Below are positions 1-7,992 of a DNA stretch of 64,000 nt, one piece after another. How positions within the stretch are numbered: position 1 is the first letter of the stretch; each line of letters opens with the position of its first letter. The position numbers and the translations under genes were made by a program. The notes beneath the pieces were generated by a model that was given only the letters and a program-made list of their open reading frames with translations, searched no databases and was not told where the DNA came from. The DNA is from Labrys monachus. Lineage in GTDB: Bacteria; Pseudomonadota; Alphaproteobacteria; Rhizobiales; Labraceae. The stretch lies in contig NZ_JAUSVK010000001.1 in assembly GCF_030814655.1 (NCBI RefSeq), positions 2,933,501 through 2,997,500 of the forward strand, read 5' to 3'.

Positions 1-362
1 AGGCCGTAGCGGCTTTCCTCGAGCCATCCGGTCTGCAGGAGGCGCGCATAGATGTGGCGCGCCCTCGCCATCGCCTCGCCGGTGGCCTGCTCATGCGCCC
101 CGGGCTGGCGGCGGCGCCGAAGCCGGCGGCGGCGCTCGGACGAAATTTCGTCGAGGGTGACGAGCGCGCCTTCCTCGTGCCAGAGGCCCGGCCTCTCGGC
201 GAGAATGTCGTAGATGATGCCGACGAGTTCGTTCTGGGTCGGAAACAGCAGGTCCGATCCGAAGCAGCTGTCGTATATCTTGACCAATACCTCCTCGTAG
301 AGGCGCCTGTTTTCTCCCGAAAACAGCATGAAGATATCGGGATCCAAAGCGCCGAACAGCAT
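1..362 (-). CDS. jetA: Wadjet-type JetA protein, N-terminal part (cut by window edge)
   Basis: The reading frame is open from the ATG at 362 to the left edge (120 codons). The start reads MLFGALDPDIFMLFSG, followed by NRRLYEEVLVKIYD, and near the edge ARLLQTGWLEE. This start and the later GWLEE segment match what I know of the JetA (DUF5716-like, kleisin-type) subunit of Wadjet, the SMC-related complex that recognises and cleaves circular plasmid DNA. A stop codon lies just upstream in frame, and GGGA is close to the ATG. JetA is usually the first gene of jetABCD, so B, C and D would lie to the left, outside the window. Assignment is by motif memory only; a different condensin-type kleisin such as MksF/MukF is the alternative. 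Confidence 0.6.
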   Translation of the reverse strand, partial: MLFGALDPDIFMLFSGENRRLYEEVLVKIYDSCFGSDLLFPTQNELVGIIYDILAERPGLWHEEGALVTLDEISSERRRRLRRRRQPGAHEQATGEAMARARHIYARLLQTGWLEESRYG

Positions 363-550
363 TCCCTGAAGTTCCCGTGGATCTTTACAGCCCAGGATAG
401 ATCGATTGCCGCCGCCAGGCTAGACAGCACCGTATCGCCATAGCCGTCCATGCACAGTTCGATGATATCCGCGCATGGCGTCAACACCGGCGGCGCCAGA
501 TTCTACGAAAATTCCGGCCATGCTCCCGTCCGACAAATATTCGCCGGCCT

Positions 551-1807
551 CTATCCTGCCCGCGGCGAGGCCCGTTCTCCGCCCGGCGGCAGGCCGGCCT
601 TCGACACCGACGCCGCAATGGCGGCGGCGGCGAGGTTGGCGCCGACGCTGGCGAGGATCGGCAGGGCATAGCTGTGGCTCGCGTCGAAGGCGAAGCCGGC
701 GACGCTGGGGCCGACCAGCGTGCCGAAAGCGACGCTGGTGTAGAGGACGCCGATGATGCCGCTGATGTTGCGTCCGCCGAAATGATCCATGACGACGGCC
801 GGCATGACGGCGACCCAGCCGCCATAGAAGACGCCGAACAACAGGGCGAAGACGGCGAGGGCCCAGAAGCCGGCTGACAGGCCCCAGATGGCGAGCGCCA
901 GCGCCATGCCGACGAACATCGCCACGAGGAAGGGCTGCCGCCCGATCCGGTCGGCGAGCCCGCCGAGAAAGAAGCGTCCCGCCGTGCTGCCGGCGCCGAT
1001 CACGCCGAGGAGAAGCACGGCCGAGGCCGGCGGCACGCCGCCATCCACCGCATAGGGCACGAGATGGACGAACGGCACGAACACGCCGAACGAACTGATC
1101 AGGCAGGCGGCATAGAGGGTGACGAACGGGCGCGACGTCACCGCCTCGCGCAGCGGCATGCCGCCCGGACGGCTTCCCTGCGCATGCCGCCGCGGCGGAT
1201 CGCCATCCGGCCCGAGGCCGCGGGCGGCCGGGTCGCCGTCGAGGAGGAGGGCCATGCCGATGCCAGCCGTCGCGGCGAGGGCGCCGAGGACGAGATAGGC
1301 GCCGCGCCATCCGAGCATGCCGATGAGATGGGCGGCGAGGGGCGGCATCACGAGCGTGCCCACGCCGATGCCGCTGACGGCGAGGCCGGAGGCAAAGCCG
1401 CGGCGCCTGACGAACCAGTGCTGCACCGCGCCGATGGCCGGCACATAGGCGCAGCCGATACCCAGCCCGACCCCGAGGCCGTAGGCCGCATAGACCCCGA
1501 CGATGCTGCCCGCCATGCTCGCAAGGGCGAGGCCGGCTCCGAGCAGCGCCATGCCGAGCACGGCCAGCCTGCGCGAGCCCCACCGGTCCGCCAGCGGCCC
1601 GCTGAGGACGCCGAAGCCGAAATAGACAAATCCCGCCAGGGAGAACACCAGCGAAACCGAGCCGCGGGAGGCGCCGAAATCCCGCTGCAGCGGTTCGACG
1701 AAGGCGCTGAAGGTGTAGGCGCTGCCGAAGCCGAGAAAGGTGACGGCGAAGGCCGCGGCGACGACGAACCAGCCATGGAAGATGCGGGGAGGGGACGGGG
1801 TGTTCAC
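551..1807 (-). CDS. MFS transporter (OFA / monocarboxylate type)
   Basis: This is a major facilitator protein of about 418 residues with 12 hydrophobic segments. It begins with FHGWFVVAAAF, a start typical of OFA/MCT-like carriers, and has the loop GPLADRWGSRR between helices 2 and 3, the family's cytoplasmic A motif. Such carriers move small organic acids, often oxalate or monocarboxylates; the substrate here is unknown. The frame is open upstream to a TTG at 1858. I prefer the GTG at 1807 because the family N-terminus begins just before the first helix, but no strong ribosome site decides it. It lies downstream of the amino-acid ABC genes on the same strand, 132 bases away, and may be cotranscribed. 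Confidence 0.8.
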   Translation of the reverse strand: MNTPSPPRIFHGWFVVAAAFAVTFLGFGSAYTFSAFVEPLQRDFGASRGSVSLVFSLAGFVYFGFGVLSGPLADRWGSRRLAVLGMALLGAGLALASMAGSIVGVYAAYGLGVGLGIGCAYVPAIGAVQHWFVRRRGFASGLAVSGIGVGTLVMPPLAAHLIGMLGWRGAYLVLGALAATAGIGMALLLDGDPAARGLGPDGDPPRRHAQGSRPGGMPLREAVTSRPFVTLYAACLISSFGVFVPFVHLVPYAVDGGVPPASAVLLLGVIGAGSTAGRFFLGGLADRIGRQPFLVAMFVGMALALAIWGLSAGFWALAVFALLFGVFYGGWVAVMPAVVMDHFGGRNISGIIGVLYTSVAFGTLVGPSVAGFAFDASHSYALPILASVGANLAAAAIAASVSKAGLPPGGERASPRAG

Positions 1808-1939
1808 GCGGGTCACTCGATGGGATCTTGCGCAAGGCACGGGCGCGGGGCCCGACAATGGGAGGGGGGCGCATGGCGCCGGATTATGGAAGGCTGGGCC
1901 GAGGACGGCCGAGGCCCGGTCGACATGGAGCCTGCCTCG

Positions 1940-2593
1940 CTACCGTCCGGCAAAGGACTCTTTTCGCTCCAGGGCCCTGGCATAGCGCGTCAGCGGAAAA
2001 CACATCGCGAAATAGATCAGGGCGACGAAGCCGTAGACCTCGAAGGGCGCGAAGGTGGCGTTGCTGATGGCGTTGGCGGCCCGCATCATCTCCTCGAAGC
2101 CGATGATCGAGGTCAGCGCCGTGCTCTTCACCAATTGCACGAGAAAGCCGACGGTCGGCGCCCGGGTGATGCGGAACGCCTGCGGCAGGATGACCAGGCG
2201 CAATTGCGCAACGTAATGCAGCCCGAGGCTGGCGCCGGCATCCCATTGCCCGAGGGGCAGCGCTTGCACGCCGCCGCGCCAGATCTCGGCGAGATAGGCG
2301 CTGGCGCTCAAGGTCAGGGCGAGGACGGCCGCCGTCCAGGGTTCGATGCGCAAGCCGAGCATCGGCAGGCCGAAGAACACCAGGAAGAGCTGCATCAGCA
2401 GCGGCGTGCCCTGGAACAGGCCGATATAGAGTTCCGCGCCACGCTGCACGGGGCGCCGGCGATCGATGCGGGCGACCATGACGGCGATGCCCACGACCCC
2501 GCCGCCGATGAAGGCCGCCGCGGAGAGAGCAAGGGTCCACCGGGCGGCGAGCAGCAGATTGCGCAGGATGTCCCAAAGAGTGAAATCCATCAC
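1940..2593 (-). CDS. Amino-acid ABC transporter permease (HisM/GlnP family)
   Basis: This is an inner-membrane permease of 217 residues, the normal length for polar-amino-acid permeases, with about five hydrophobic helices. The N-terminal segment GLFQGTPLLMQLF is the hallmark of the His/Glu/Gln/Arg/opine permease family. The EAA-like loop lies around ASLGLHYVAQLRLVILPQA. Its ATG overlaps the stop of the upstream permease by four bases (ATGA), so the two are translationally coupled and probably form a heterodimeric channel. The substrate cannot be read from the sequence. Confidence 0.88.
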   Translation of the reverse strand: MMDFTLWDILRNLLLAARWTLALSAAAFIGGGVVGIAVMVARIDRRRPVQRGAELYIGLFQGTPLLMQLFLVFFGLPMLGLRIEPWTAAVLALTLSASAYLAEIWRGGVQALPLGQWDAGASLGLHYVAQLRLVILPQAFRITRAPTVGFLVQLVKSTALTSIIGFEEMMRAANAISNATFAPFEVYGFVALIYFAMCFPLTRYARALERKESFAGR

Positions 2594-3255
2594 GAGAGGC
2601 CACCCAGAATTTTCCTGCCGCCGGCGAACATCAGCCGCCGCAGCACGATGCTCAGGGCGAGATAGACCATGGTCACGACGAAATAGGTTTCGAAGGCCCG
2701 GAACGTCCGGGACTGGATCATGTCCGCCTCATAGGTCAGCTCCCGCACGGAAATCTGCGAGACGACGGCGGATTCGAGCATCATGATGACGACCTGGCTG
2801 GCGAGAGCCGGAAAGATGACCCGCAGGGCCTGCGGCAGCACGATCTTGACGAAGATCTGGCGCCCGCGCAGGCCCAGCGCCATGCCCGCTTCCTTCTGGC
2901 CGACCGGCACCGCGTCCAGGCCCGCCCCGACGATCTCGGTGCCATAGGCCGCGAGGTTGATCGTCATCGCCAGGACCGCGGCGGCGAACGGATCGAGCCG
3001 GACGCCGACGCTCGGCAGCCCGAAGAAGAAAAAGAACAGCTGCACCAGGAACGGCGTGTTGCGGATGATCTCGACATAGGCGCCGATCACATGGCGCAGG
3101 GCTGCATGGCGGCTGCGGCGCCCGGCCGCCCCGAGGACGCTGAGCACCGCGCCGACCACCGCGGTGACGAGGGTCAGCAGGACCGTCGTCGCCGCCCCGC
3201 GGCCGATCAGGGAGAGTGCGTCCGCCAGCCAGCCGAAATCGAGATCATATCGCAA
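2590..3255 (-). CDS. Amino-acid ABC transporter permease (HisQ/GlnP family)
   Basis: This is the second permease of the importer, 221 residues, with the family segment EIIRNTPFLVQLFFFFFGLP and the EAA-like loop KEAGMALGLRGRQIF before KIVLPQALR. It is followed by the coupled permease at 1940-2593 and preceded 36 bases upstream by the binding-protein gene, giving the order binding protein, permease, permease. No ATP-binding subunit follows in this cluster, so the ATPase must be supplied from elsewhere in the genome. Confidence 0.88.
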   Translation of the reverse strand: MRYDLDFGWLADALSLIGRGAATTVLLTLVTAVVGAVLSVLGAAGRRSRHAALRHVIGAYVEIIRNTPFLVQLFFFFFGLPSVGVRLDPFAAAVLAMTINLAAYGTEIVGAGLDAVPVGQKEAGMALGLRGRQIFVKIVLPQALRVIFPALASQVVIMMLESAVVSQISVRELTYEADMIQSRTFRAFETYFVVTMVYLALSIVLRRLMFAGGRKILGGLS

Positions 3256-3291
3256 AGGTCCGGTCCCTCACGCCGCCGATCCTTCAGGTCC

Positions 3292-4098
3292 TCAATCCTT
3301 GAGGTCCTTGGGATCGAGGGGCTTGCCGAGCCATTGGGTCGAGATCTGGTTCAGCGTGCCGCCGGCCAGCATCTTGGCGATGGCGCCGTCGACGGCCTGC
3401 TTGAGCCGATCCTCGTTCTTGTTGAGACCGATGTGATCGGGCGAGGTCAGCAGCTGGAATTTCTGTTCCGGCTTGAGATCGACCTGCTTGGCCAGGACCT
3501 GGGCGCCGACATCGTTGCCCACCACCATCAATTGCGCCTGGCCGGAGAGGAAGGCCTGGATCACGGCGTTGTAATTGTCGAACCGCCTGACATCGGCGGA
3601 AGCCGGCGCTGCCGCCGTGAGCGAGGTGTCCTCGAGCGTGCCGCGGTTGACGGCGATGCTCTTGCCGGCGAGGTCTTCCTTGCCCGAGACCTTGACCGCC
3701 TGCGGACCGATCACCGCGATGTAATAGGGCGCATAGGCGGCGGTGTAGTCGATGACCTTCGCCCGCTCCGCGCTGTAGCCGACGCTCATGAGAAGATCGA
3801 CGCGATGGTCGGTCAGATAGGGGATGCGGTTCTGGCCGGTGACGCTGACGAGCTTGAGCTTGACGTTCAGCGTGTCGGCCAGGATCTGGGCGACGTCGAC
3901 GTCATAGCCTTGCAGGCTCATGTCGGATGCGACCGACGAGAAAGGCGGAAAGTCGGAAAATACGCCGACATTGAGCACCCCGGCCTTGGTGATGTCGTCG
4001 AGGCCGTCCGCCTTGGCGGGCGCGCCGGCCCACAGGCCTGCCGCGACCAGCGCGGCCCCGGCAATGAAGGCCCGCCGGCTGTTGTCTTGCATCGTCAT
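3292..4098 (-). CDS. Amino-acid ABC transporter substrate-binding protein
   Basis: This 268-residue protein belongs to the SBP_bac_3 family. The N-terminus has SRRAFIAGAALVA and ends in APAKA, a Tat-like or long Sec export signal, so it should act in the periplasm. The mature part starts with the typical GVLNVGVFSDFPPF and contains GYDVDVAQILAD and a DLLMSVGYSAERA-type segment that contact the ligand in this fold. It is the first gene of the importer that continues with the two permeases at 3255-1940. The likely ligand class is a polar amino acid or opine; the exact ligand is not readable. Confidence 0.88.
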   Translation of the reverse strand: MTMQDNSRRAFIAGAALVAAGLWAGAPAKADGLDDITKAGVLNVGVFSDFPPFSSVASDMSLQGYDVDVAQILADTLNVKLKLVSVTGQNRIPYLTDHRVDLLMSVGYSAERAKVIDYTAAYAPYYIAVIGPQAVKVSGKEDLAGKSIAVNRGTLEDTSLTAAAPASADVRRFDNYNAVIQAFLSGQAQLMVVGNDVGAQVLAKQVDLKPEQKFQLLTSPDHIGLNKNEDRLKQAVDGAIAKMLAGGTLNQISTQWLGKPLDPKDLKD

Positions 4099-4436
4099 TT
4101 TCTTACTCCGGTTTGGATGGTGGCAGTTTCAGGTCGGGCAAGGAGTGCCGTCCGCCGGGGTTCGGATGCCGAACCCATGCGGCCGCCGCAGGGAGTTTCG
4201 CACAGGAGGGCCCTATTGACGCGATGCCGCGCGAGTCTGCCAGATGCGCGGACCCCGTGTCGATCCCGTCTCGGCGGCGCTGAGGAATAAAGGCCTTCTG
4301 CGGCACTTCCCATGCCCGCCTTTCAGCCTCCTCGCCCTCGCTCAAGCGCGGCGTCGAGAATCTCTGCTCGGAGCCGGATGCGTCATGAGAGCCGCAGGGA
4401 CGGGCGACGCGTGGTTCGGCCGGCGCCCTCGCGGCG
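4099..4436. other. Intergenic stretch upstream of the amino-acid importer
   Basis: These 338 bases separate the binding-protein gene from the small gene at 4437. They should hold the promoter of the importer on the minus strand, but I see no convincing -35/-10 pair, RNA gene or repeat. The short open frames here lack family features and ribosome sites. Confidence 0.4.
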
Positions 4437-4721
4437 TCAGGCGGACGGGCCGGAGGCGGTATCCCGCCTGTTCCGGTGCGCCAGTTCCCGCAGCGCCTTA
4501 CGAATCACGTCGAGGTTGTGCGCCGGTCTTTTCACGTTGATGCTGTCGATGAGGTCGGCGCAGTAGTCGATGCCGGACGCATGGGCCTCGGCCAGGGCGG
4601 CCAGGATGACGCCCATCACCGCTTCCTTTTCTTCGTCGGAGCCGGCGAGGCGGGGAATGAGCCAGCGGATGAACTTCTGCTGCCATTCGATCTGGTGCCG
4701 CGTGGCGTCGGACGTCTGCAT
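4437..4721 (-). CDS. Small hypothetical protein (94 aa)
   Basis: This is a charged, soluble protein of 94 residues that I do not recognise. It appears mostly helical, with EWQQKFIRWLIPRLAGSDEEKEAVMGVILAAL-like amphipathic segments and a basic C-terminus. The start is supported by AGGA seven bases before the ATG on the minus strand. Codon use looks like that of the neighbouring genes. There is no signal peptide or membrane segment. It stands alone between the amino-acid importer and tRNA-Asn. Confidence 0.55.
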   Translation of the reverse strand: MQTSDATRHQIEWQQKFIRWLIPRLAGSDEEKEAVMGVILAALAEAHASGIDYCADLIDSINVKRPAHNLDVIRKALRELAHRNRRDTASGPSA

Positions 4722-4883
4722 GATATGGTCCTGAACCGTCGGCTATCGGAGATAGTCTGCCTGATACTCCCTGACCGGGCCTCCATCAACCCAAATCGTC
4801 GCGGGAGGGGAGCGCCGGCGGATAGCGGGGGGCGACGGAAACGAACGGCAAGCGGCCATGCCGCAGGACATCTGCGGAAGACA

Positions 4884-4916
4884 TAAAAATACCCAAGGCA
4901 ACTGAATGCCTTGGGT
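4884..4916 (-). terminator. Rho-independent terminator of tRNA-Asn
   Basis: A perfect 10-bp stem (4891-4900 pairing with 4907-4916, six-base loop) lies just behind the tRNA on the minus strand and is followed by a run of five T residues. This is a standard intrinsic terminator. Confidence 0.85.
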
Positions 4917-4923
4917 ATAAAAT

Positions 4924-4999
4924 TGGCTCCGCGAGCAGGACTCGAACCTGCGACCGAGCGATTAACAGTCGCTTGCTCTACCAACTGAGCTATCGCGGA
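4924..4999 (-). tRNA. tRNA-Asn (GTT)
   Basis: A complete 76-nt cloverleaf with acceptor arms TCCGCGA and TCGCGGA, D-loop AGCTCAGTTGGTAGAGC, anticodon GTT in the loop CTGTTAA, T-arm GGTTCGAGTCC, and the 3' CCA encoded in the DNA. It has its own promoter and terminator. Confidence 0.96.
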
Positions 5000-5025
5000 A
5001 CAGGGGCGAACCCTGCGAGGCCGGC

Positions 5026-5054
5026 CGTATAGCAACAACATCGGGGCTTGCCAA
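5026..5054 (-). promoter_or_regulatory. Promoter of tRNA-Asn
   Basis: On the minus strand TTGGCA (5054-5049) and TATACG (5031-5026) are separated by exactly 17 bases. This resembles the alphaproteobacterial housekeeping consensus CTTGGC-N17-CTATA. It ends about 26 bases before the mature tRNA. Confidence 0.65.
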
Positions 5055-5156
5055 GGGGCACCGCTGCCTCGTTTGCATCTTCTTTTCGGATTATTATCTG
5101 GGGTAGGGATCGCGCGATCGGCGCAACCTGCGGTTTTTCCCGGAAAGGAGAGGGTT

Positions 5157-5405
5157 TTGACGCCACAGAGCCACATTGGCCGTCCGCGGCTCAAATTTGC
5201 CGGACGCCATTTTCATCTGCCGGGTTCGCGCTGGGTGCGCGTCGGGCTCGGGGGATTGTTCGTCACAGGCGGGCTTGTCGGCTTCCTGCCCGTGCTGGGC
5301 TTCTGGATGATTCCCGTCGGCCTGCTCATCCTCTCCGTCGATATTCCTCGCGTCCGTCGTGGACGGCGGCGGCTCGCCGTCTGGTGGGGCAGGCGCCGGG
5401 CGTGA
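5157..5405 (+). CDS. Small membrane protein (82 aa)
   Basis: The protein has one long or two short hydrophobic helices (VRVGLGGLFVTGGLVGFLPV and a FWMIPVGLLILSVD segment) followed by a strongly basic tail. This layout is familiar from short conserved inner-membrane proteins of Rhizobiales; the function is unknown. I choose the TTG at 5157 because GGAGAGG stands directly before it; the frame is open further upstream to an ATG at 5073 that has no such site and would overlap the promoter region of tRNA-Asn. Confidence 0.6.
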   Translation: MTPQSHIGRPRLKFAGRHFHLPGSRWVRVGLGGLFVTGGLVGFLPVLGFWMIPVGLLILSVDIPRVRRGRRRLAVWWGRRRA

Positions 5406-5423
5406 TTCGTCGCGCCGCCGCCT

Positions 5424-5675
5424 TCAGTACCTGGTATTGAAGGATGGAGGATCGCTGGCGGGGAACGAATCCTCCAGCGTCTCGTCCACCTCCCGGTCGT
5501 CGACCTGCGGCACGTCGCGCGTATTGGCGCCGGCGGCGCGGATGATCGCCAGGTCCAGCGCCTGCTCGCGTGCCTTCCGATAGTCCAGTTCCTGGCGCAG
5601 GCGCCTGTTGTCATCGACCAGCTTGGCAATCAAAGCCACTGCGGCGAGTGACGTGAGAAGGCGAATCCCCATCAT
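5424..5675 (-). CDS. Small membrane-anchored protein with DETLEDSFPASDPPS tail (83 aa)
   Basis: It starts MMGIRLLTSLAAVALIAKL, a single membrane anchor, followed by a charged coiled-coil-like stretch (DDNRRLRQELDYRKAREQ). It ends with the acidic motif ETLEDSFPASDPPSF, which recurs at the C-terminus of several short alphaproteobacterial proteins of unknown role. GGAGGG stands five bases before the ATG at 5675, which decides this start against an upstream ATG at 5780. It converges on the small membrane gene at 5157-5405. Confidence 0.65.
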   Translation of the reverse strand: MMGIRLLTSLAAVALIAKLVDDNRRLRQELDYRKAREQALDLAIIRAAGANTRDVPQVDDREVDETLEDSFPASDPPSFNTRY

Positions 5676-5889
5676 AAAGTCCCTCCATGCCCGACATCGG
5701 GCATTCCCTGCCGGGACAACTGCCGGGCCGGGAATGAGTTCCTCATGGCGCCTGCCGACCGCGCCGGGAGCTTTTGGCAATTGAACGGACCCGGGCGCCG
5801 GGATGAAACCCGTCGAATTTCACGGGCGGTGCCGGCCCCCGCGAATTGCTAGGGTTTCGGTGGGATCGGGCAACCACGAGGGGCACATC

Positions 5890-6234
5890 GTGAGCGACAA
5901 GGTTGATCGGCGATGCGGCAACCTGCCAGCGCCCCGGCAAAGCATCCGCGTGGCGATCGGCAGCATCCTGCGCACGCCGCCCACGAACAATCCGTCCCAG
6001 CCCGGCTTCGGCAATCGCGTGCTGAATGGCTGCGGGCGGTCCCTGACGGGGCTGAACGAGGATTGCGTGGCGCGGGAGGCCCGACGCGTCATCGACGTCT
6101 TCGAGCCGCTGATAGAGGTCAGGGACGTCGCCGTGGAAATGACCCCGTCGAGTGCGGTCAACGCTATCACCATACGCTATGAAATCATCGAATCCGGCGA
6201 TCTCCATGACATCCGGGTCGAGATCCCGACATAG
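5890..6234 (+). CDS. gpW/gp25-like protein, isolated
   Basis: The 114-residue protein fits the pattern of phage baseplate W/gp25 and the related TssE family: SIRVAIGSILRTPP near the N-terminus, PGFGNRVLNG, then VIDVFEPLIEVRDVAVEM and a beta-rich end NAITIRYEI. In those families the protein builds the baseplate of a contractile tail or type VI secretion machine. No other tail, baseplate or secretion gene is nearby. The GTG at 5890 is preceded by GAGGGG; an ATG at 5803 is in frame but lacks a site. Assignment is by pattern only, and the isolated setting argues for a domesticated or relict gene. Confidence 0.45.
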   Translation: MSDKVDRRCGNLPAPRQSIRVAIGSILRTPPTNNPSQPGFGNRVLNGCGRSLTGLNEDCVAREARRVIDVFEPLIEVRDVAVEMTPSSAVNAITIRYEIIESGDLHDIRVEIPT

Positions 6235-6452
6235 TCTGGTGCCGCGGCGTTCGCGCCCGGCCGCCGTCCGTCAGGGTACAATTTCCTCCGGCGCCGTATG
6301 GCATCGCAGCCGATGCCGCGTCGAGGCAGAGAGCCTGGAGAGCCGACGGCGCTTTCCGCGAGGCCGCTCCGCCGTGCATGGAATTGTCCAGGCATCCTTG
6401 CTAAGGTCGCCGCCGATTTTTGTTCCTTCGAGGCGAAGTTGATTCGCCCTAA

Positions 6453-6485
6453 CGCTCCCGCGAGGCGGGAGCGGGGCTTTCTTTC
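6453..6485 (+). terminator. Terminator-like hairpin before opgC
   Basis: A perfect 9-bp GC-rich stem (CGCTCCCGC at 6453-6461 and GCGGGAGCG at 6465-6473) with a three-base loop is followed by GGGCTTTCTTTC. It lies in the 342-base gap between the gp25-like gene and opgC and would end transcription from the left. The rest of the gap shows no gene. Confidence 0.6.
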
Positions 6486-6576
6486 GGTGACGCCGGCTGA
6501 GATGGCATTCCTCGCGTGAAGCCGAACGGCCATCGATCATCTCATTTTTCGGCTATCTTTTTTCGGCGACAGAAAT

Positions 6577-7761
6577 ATGAAGCGGCTCAATATACTGGAC
6601 GGATTCCGAGGGTATTTCCTCGTGTTCATGGTTCTGAACCATGTGGCGCTGAGGGGCGGCGTCTGGCTCGTGCACGTCAATCACGGCGAATTGGGCTATG
6701 TCCAGGACGCGCAGGGCTTCGTTTTCCTTTCCGGCCTGATGGTCGGCATGGTCTACAGCCGCCGGATGACGAAGCAGGGCTTTCGCGCCGGCGCCCTGAA
6801 GATGTGGCGGCGGGCGCTGGAAATCTACCGCTACACGCTCGGCTGCCTGGTCGGCATCGTTCTTTTGGCAGTGATCTTTCCCGAGGCGCAGGAGGCCTGG
6901 CGTCCCTGGCTGCTGCAACTCGGCGACCGGGATCCGCTGTTCGTGCTGGCGGCCGCCCTGCTTGTCTTCCAGCCGACCTTCATGGACATCCTGCCGCAAT
7001 ATATCCTCTACATGCTCGTCGCGCCGCCCCTCGTCTGGCTGTGCATACAGGGGCGCTGGCGGATCGTGCTCTTCGGCTCCATCGCGGTATGGCTGGCGAT
7101 CCAGTTCGGCGTCCATCTGCCCTTCATCGACACCTTCCATGCGCTCGCCGGCCGGATCGAATCGCCGGGTCTCCTCCAGATCTATTTCAACCTGTTCGCC
7201 TGGCAGATCTGCTTCATGTCCGGTCTCGTGCTGGGCGCGCTCACCATGACCGGGCAGATCGACTGGCAGCGGTTGATGGACCCGCGCAGGCCGGCCCTGG
7301 CCTGGTTCGCCCTCGGGGTCTTCCTGGTCTTCGCCGCGCTTCGGCTCGGCCTCACCTTCGGCGTCTATCCGCCCGACTTCGTCGACCGCATCACCCTGTT
7401 CGACCGGCGCGACGAATTGAGCTTCATCTATGTCGCCAATTTCGCGGTGGATGCCTATCTCATCGCATGGGTGCTGATCGCCGGGCCGCGCACCGGCAAC
7501 ATCGTGCTGGCGACGATCGCGACCGGCCTGACCTGGCTGTTCAACCAGCCCTTCCTGCGGTTCATCGGCCGCCATTCGCTGCAGACCTATACGCTCCACG
7601 TGTTCCTGATCTACGGCATCAAGGCACTCGACGTGAATTTCGGGCCGTGGACCCAGGCGACCAAGACCGCGGTGGTGATCGGGGCGATCGCATCGCTGGC
7701 GCTGCCGGCCCTCTACCGCGAGTCGCGCTTCTTCGCCCGCAAGCCGGCTTCCTCGACGTGA
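6577..7761 (+). CDS. opgC: OpgC-family membrane protein
   Basis: This 394-residue inner-membrane protein has about ten hydrophobic segments. It starts MKRLNILDGFRGYFLVFMV and continues with NHVALRGG and GFVFLSGLMVGMVYSRR, the characteristic N-terminal region of OpgC. OpgC belongs to the acyltransferase-3-like superfamily and transfers succinyl groups to osmoregulated periplasmic glucans in Rhodobacter and Brucella. Length and layout fit the family. It stands alone downstream of a terminator hairpin. The family is assigned with good confidence; the acyl group and acceptor here are inferred. Confidence 0.82.
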   Translation: MKRLNILDGFRGYFLVFMVLNHVALRGGVWLVHVNHGELGYVQDAQGFVFLSGLMVGMVYSRRMTKQGFRAGALKMWRRALEIYRYTLGCLVGIVLLAVIFPEAQEAWRPWLLQLGDRDPLFVLAAALLVFQPTFMDILPQYILYMLVAPPLVWLCIQGRWRIVLFGSIAVWLAIQFGVHLPFIDTFHALAGRIESPGLLQIYFNLFAWQICFMSGLVLGALTMTGQIDWQRLMDPRRPALAWFALGVFLVFAALRLGLTFGVYPPDFVDRITLFDRRDELSFIYVANFAVDAYLIAWVLIAGPRTGNIVLATIATGLTWLFNQPFLRFIGRHSLQTYTLHVFLIYGIKALDVNFGPWTQATKTAVVIGAIASLALPALYRESRFFARKPASST

Positions 7762-7918: not shown

Positions 7919-7992
7919 GGCCACGTGGCGGAGTGGTTACGCAGAGGACTGCAAATCCTTGCACCCCGGTTCGATTCCGGGCGTGGCCTCCA
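7919..7992 (+). tRNA. tRNA-Cys (GCA)
   Basis: A 74-nt cloverleaf with acceptor arms GGCCACG and CGTGGCC, anticodon GCA in CTGCAAA, T-arm GGTTCGATTCC and encoded CCA. Its 3' half is repeated imperfectly at 14083-14122, which makes it the likely target of a past site-specific integration. Confidence 0.96.

Follow-up and report, generated by a model that had tools for sequence, protein, structure and literature searches.

A Probable Complete Type I Wadjet Operon in the Chromosome of Labrys monachus

A reading frame that runs out of the left edge of the DNA analyzed here very probably represents the 5′ part of jetA, the first gene of a complete type I Wadjet operon (jetA-jetB-jetC-jetD) in the chromosome, as judged by sequence comparison. 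The analyzed DNA (the window) is a stretch of 64,000 nucleotides from Labrys monachus (G000:C1:2933501-2997500), and the genome consists of a single contig of 6,920,400 bases. The adjoining genes were read from a locus designated L008, which starts 15.5 kb to the left of the window and extends 4000 bases into it. The shared 4000 bases are identical, and an L008 position minus 15500 gives the window coordinate. The genus set contained this genome (G000) and four others (G001-G004; n = 5).

Identification of jetA at the Window Edge

The list of open reading frames contains a minus-strand frame at window 3..362 that starts with ATG, encodes 120 amino acids, and exits the left edge with an open 3′ end; the list also has two frames that overlap it, at 2..487 on the minus strand and at 3..443 on the plus strand. 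The initial annotation had described this frame as beginning with MLFGALDPDIFMLFSG and as holding NRRLYEEVLVKIYD and QTGWLEE, all of which we could read in the sequence, and had taken it for the beginning of a Wadjet-like jetA. This assignment holds. The 120-residue fragment matches the PADLOC profile JetA1 (PDLC00453; 159 bits, E 3.6e-47, residues 1-120) and, weakly, the Pfam family PF18982 (30.4 bits, E 2e-07, above the cut-off of 26.2); a search of NCBIfam with the same fragment gave no match up to E 1. An HMM search with the full-length protein, proposed as a check at the outset, returned 688 bits for PADLOC JetA1 (residues 1-506) and 224 bits for PF18982 (DUF5716; residues 28-497). The start of the protein is conserved as well: if the first start codon of the mechanical frame is used for both relatives, JetA from Devosia starts at the same residue and JetA from Mesorhizobium one residue earlier. 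The jet genes and the DNA upstream of jetA are arranged as follows.

Window 551-1858, minus strand: MFS transporter gene (Pfam MFS_1 match), upstream of jetA on the same strand
Window 363..550, minus strand: gap of 188 bases between jetA and the MFS transporter gene
Window 1..362, minus strand: 5′ part of jetA, residues 1-120 of 509; bases 1-2 are part of the next codon
L008:14333-15862, minus strand: full jetA, 509 amino acids; its left end is G000:C1:2932333
L008:13684-14343, minus strand: jetB, 219 amino acids; the frame starts with TTG
L008:10244-13687, minus strand: jetC, 1147 amino acids
L008:9015-10244, minus strand: jetD, 409 amino acids

The jet promoter probably lies in the gap at window 363..550.

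The jetABCD Operon

The initial annotation had pointed to the DNA left of the window as the place to look for jetB, jetC, and jetD, and all three directly follow jetA there, on the same strand and wholly outside the window. Consecutive genes overlap by 11 nt (jetA/jetB), 4 nt (jetB/jetC), and 1 nt (jetC/jetD), the first two overlaps being equal to those in the Devosia locus described below, and we infer that the four genes are co-transcribed as one operon. JetB matches PADLOC JetB1 with 261 bits (residues 1-210 of 219) and the Pfam family DUF4194 (PF13835) with 59 bits. JetC matches PADLOC JetC1 with 1265 bits (residues 1-1139 of 1147), and its Pfam matches above the cut-off are SbcC_Walker_B and AAA_29. 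JetD matches PADLOC JetD1 with 426 bits (residues 1-396 of 409) and the Pfam family JetD_C (PF09983) with 62 bits. The label "Wadjet-like" can thus be narrowed to type I Wadjet by PADLOC profile, since the best PADLOC match of each of the four proteins is the JetX1 profile. The best matches to types II and III are weak (JetC2, 27 bits; JetD3, 28 bits), and JetC also matches LmuB with 35 bits.

A search of solved structures with single sequences found no match for JetA, JetB, JetC, or JetD. A profile built from this JetC and five homologues did match three distinct solved sequences, mainly in the N-terminal head, and all three are named JetC: 8dk1 (E 2e-11), 8as8 (E 3.9e-11), and 9qxt (E 5.7e-10). 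The corresponding profile searches gave no match for JetD and only chance-level matches for JetA and JetB (E at least 0.1). The lack of a match for JetA, JetB, and JetD among solved structures indicates that this branch lies far from the structurally studied proteins.

Conserved Motifs and Integrity of the Genes

In the alignment, JetC contains GKNATGKST, SGAERQ, and LAVFDEAF, which we take to be the Walker A, signature, and Walker B motifs, respectively; LAVFDEAF is also the site of the Pfam Walker B match. In JetD, residues E261, D312, and D314 are invariant in all eight aligned sequences, this one included, and we read them as the metal-binding acidic residues from the description in the review PMC10586767. 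The same review states that an IFDR motif at the N-terminus of JetB contacts JetD; reading the sequence, we found that a literal IFDR is absent from this JetB.

Nothing suggests that jetABCD is decaying, and it is extremely unlikely that the locus is a non-functional relic of a Wadjet system. Two features of jetD could be taken as signs of such decay: a HepT frame on the facing strand enters its 3′ end, and the protein carries a short non-conserved tail beyond its C-terminal LEQE..DP block. The block itself is intact, however, and all four frames of the operon are open, reach the full length of their families, overlap at the junctions, and keep the conserved motif residues. In addition, the jet genes, with a GC3 of 0.85-0.90, come close to the six metabolic and transport neighbors that were measured (0.87-0.90); the facing MNT and HepT genes have lower values, 0.77 and 0.79.

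Distribution and Relatives

With JetC as the query, matches at E ≤ 0.001 were found in three of the 100 searched genomes, this one included, and in none of the four other genomes of the genus. JetD_C likewise occurs in one of the five genus genomes, namely, this one; the control for this search, Corynebacterium glutamicum, was positive. Across the order, taken to be Hyphomicrobiales from the named relatives, 13 of 397 genomes, again including this one, contain JetC at E ≤ 1e-30; in three of these 13, mechanical reading meets a stop within the match or within its frame.

These counts bear on whether the operon could encode a chromosome-organizing condensin of the MukBEF/MksBEF type without a role in defense. 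JetABC does resemble MukBEF according to PMC10586767, and the PADLOC models are labeled "MukB-like" for JetC and "MukE-like" for JetB. Nevertheless, we consider a condensin without a defense role very improbable: the operon ends in a complete jetD whose acidic residues are intact, and the lack of JetC and JetD_C matches in the four other genus genomes, together with the rarity of JetC in the order, does not fit a housekeeping role.

A contig scan with a single protein, which covers close relatives only, identified two loci, one in Mesorhizobium tamadayense (L047) and one in Devosia sp. Root685 (L048), and all four jet genes are present in both. The proteins described here are 63% (JetA), 66% (JetB), 56% (JetC), and 45% (JetD) identical to those from M. 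tamadayense, and 63%, 67%, 55%, and 49% identical, respectively, to those from Devosia. The Devosia operon is followed by matches to PADLOC PRTase_III-A and RT_III-A, which we read as genes of a type III-A retron, and on the opposite side stands a weakly matching SIR2-like protein, so that this neighborhood looks like a defense island. In Mesorhizobium, a dGTPase match, which could also be a housekeeping gene, adjoins the operon, and on the other side lies a large protein that gives partial matches to TmtA. The defense-like neighbors in the two loci support, without proving, a defense role for this branch.

In the Devosia locus, the retron-type III-A genes, the SIR2-like protein, and a patatin-like protein that adjoin the operon lie at L048:14694-17455 and 4027-7616.

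Among the plasmids of PLSDB, JetC matches five records at E ≤ 1e-30, all with less than 60% identity and with sizes from 408 kb to 2.8 Mb; for two of the five, the match spans 80% or more of the query. A comparison of plasmid content by means of RepC was dropped, as the sample was five genomes and one RepC sits on a contig whose length, 1.97 Mb or more, exceeds what Wadjet restricts. For the record, RepC (PF03428) has no match in this genome and scores above the family cut-off in three of the four other genus genomes, all three of which fall outside the quality bounds.

Genomic Neighborhood

To the right of the operon lie the MFS transporter gene and an ABC transporter set (two permeases and a binding protein). 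To the left, we find two TPP enzymes, an FAD oxidoreductase, an amidase, and a cyclase. The neighbors that were scanned are mostly metabolic and transport genes, and the only known defense genes among them are an MNT/HepT pair (nucleotidyltransferase/HepT).

The MFS gene and the ABC set, both on the minus strand, together occupy window 551-4098. At the DNA level, the ABC part is about 77-83% identical to its matches in G001 and G002, and none of the listed matches from these two genomes extends to the MFS gene.

A search of the four other genus genomes with both flanks of the operon found no clean empty insertion site. In G001, the two flanks match best at separate places on a single contig, near 1.82 and near 1.46 Mb; in G002, the best matches fall on different contigs; and in G003 and G004, all matches of the right flank either show 66-75% identity or are very short. 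The flanking genes that were scanned, which included two of the L009 frames and a small part of the rest of the window, gave no match to an integrase family, and there is no tRNA in L008 or L009. The two tRNAs of the window are at 4924-4999 and 7919-7992.

The MNT/HepT Pair Facing jetD

This toxin-antitoxin pair occupies L008:8393-9198 on the plus strand, some 6.3 to 7.1 kb beyond the left edge of the window and between a TPP enzyme gene and jetD.

L008:8393-8683, plus strand: MNT (Pfam PF01909; PADLOC candidate PDC-S09)
L008:8680-9198, plus strand: HepT (Pfam PF01934; no PADLOC match)

In PMC7641770, an MntA antitoxin is reported to act as an adenylyltransferase that silences HepT by chemical modification. 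The homology of the HepT protein stops at residue 109 of 172, and its last 63 residues are read from the junction and then from the strand opposite the 3′ end of jetD, which the frame overlaps by 184 nt. From stop to stop, the HepT frame measures 312 amino acids here, compared to 114, 127, and 129 amino acids in three matches from other genomes; a fourth such match has 539 amino acids and a stop inside. Among the five genomes of the genus, HepT was found in this one alone.

One could imagine that Wadjet and the facing MNT/HepT arrived as one linked and cooperating module, in which the toxin-antitoxin pair would serve as a stabilizer of the locus or as a back-up in case of Wadjet failure and the convergent 184-nt overlap would tie the expression of the two. 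We regard such a module as improbable.

That MNT/HepT generally travels with Wadjet is an idea we rejected because of two findings. HepT matches occur in four of the 12 other order genomes with JetC, and none of them lies within 500 kb of jetC on the same contig. Furthermore, tblastn searches with MNT and HepT found no match in the loci of 15 relatives; only two of these loci, L047 and L048, include long flanks.

Proposed Function

Wadjet is an anti-plasmid system known to act on small plasmid circles by recognizing and cleaving them. Section 4 of the review PMC10586767, from which the Wadjet mechanism is taken, proposes that JetABCD extrudes loops on small circles until two motors collide and thereby activate the JetD nuclease; linear DNA and circles larger than about 100 kb are spared. 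By homology, the JetA (kleisin), JetB (KITE), and JetC (SMC ATPase) described here would assemble into a dimer of DNA loop-extruding SMC motors. Upon full extrusion of a small circular DNA, the motors would meet and activate JetD, a predicted TOPRIM nuclease, which would cut the circle, while the chromosome, large DNA, and linear DNA would be spared. That the proteins of jetABCD form this complex, extrude loops, and cut small circular plasmids is predicted from the Wadjet family. Wadjet activity, if present, would lead one to expect poor uptake of small circular plasmids, a practical point for anyone who wishes to transform this bacterium.

Comparison with Known Systems

MukBEF is not known to include a JetD. 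The condensins MukBEF and MksBEF have the SMC, KITE, and kleisin subunits in common with JetABC, and MksBEF is without JetD, according to PMC10586767; in contrast, the locus described here includes jetD. MksBEFG and EptABCD are both equated with JetABCD in the same review, and going by that text, they would differ in name only. The operon agrees with type I Wadjet in gene content (all four genes) and gene order, in profile matches that span nearly the full length of each protein, and in the conserved motif residues. We found no essential difference from this type; a local feature is the MNT/HepT pair that faces jetD. The operon adds little to the existing knowledge of Wadjet, and jetABCD from L. 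monachus is an ordinary new member of the known type I Wadjet family.
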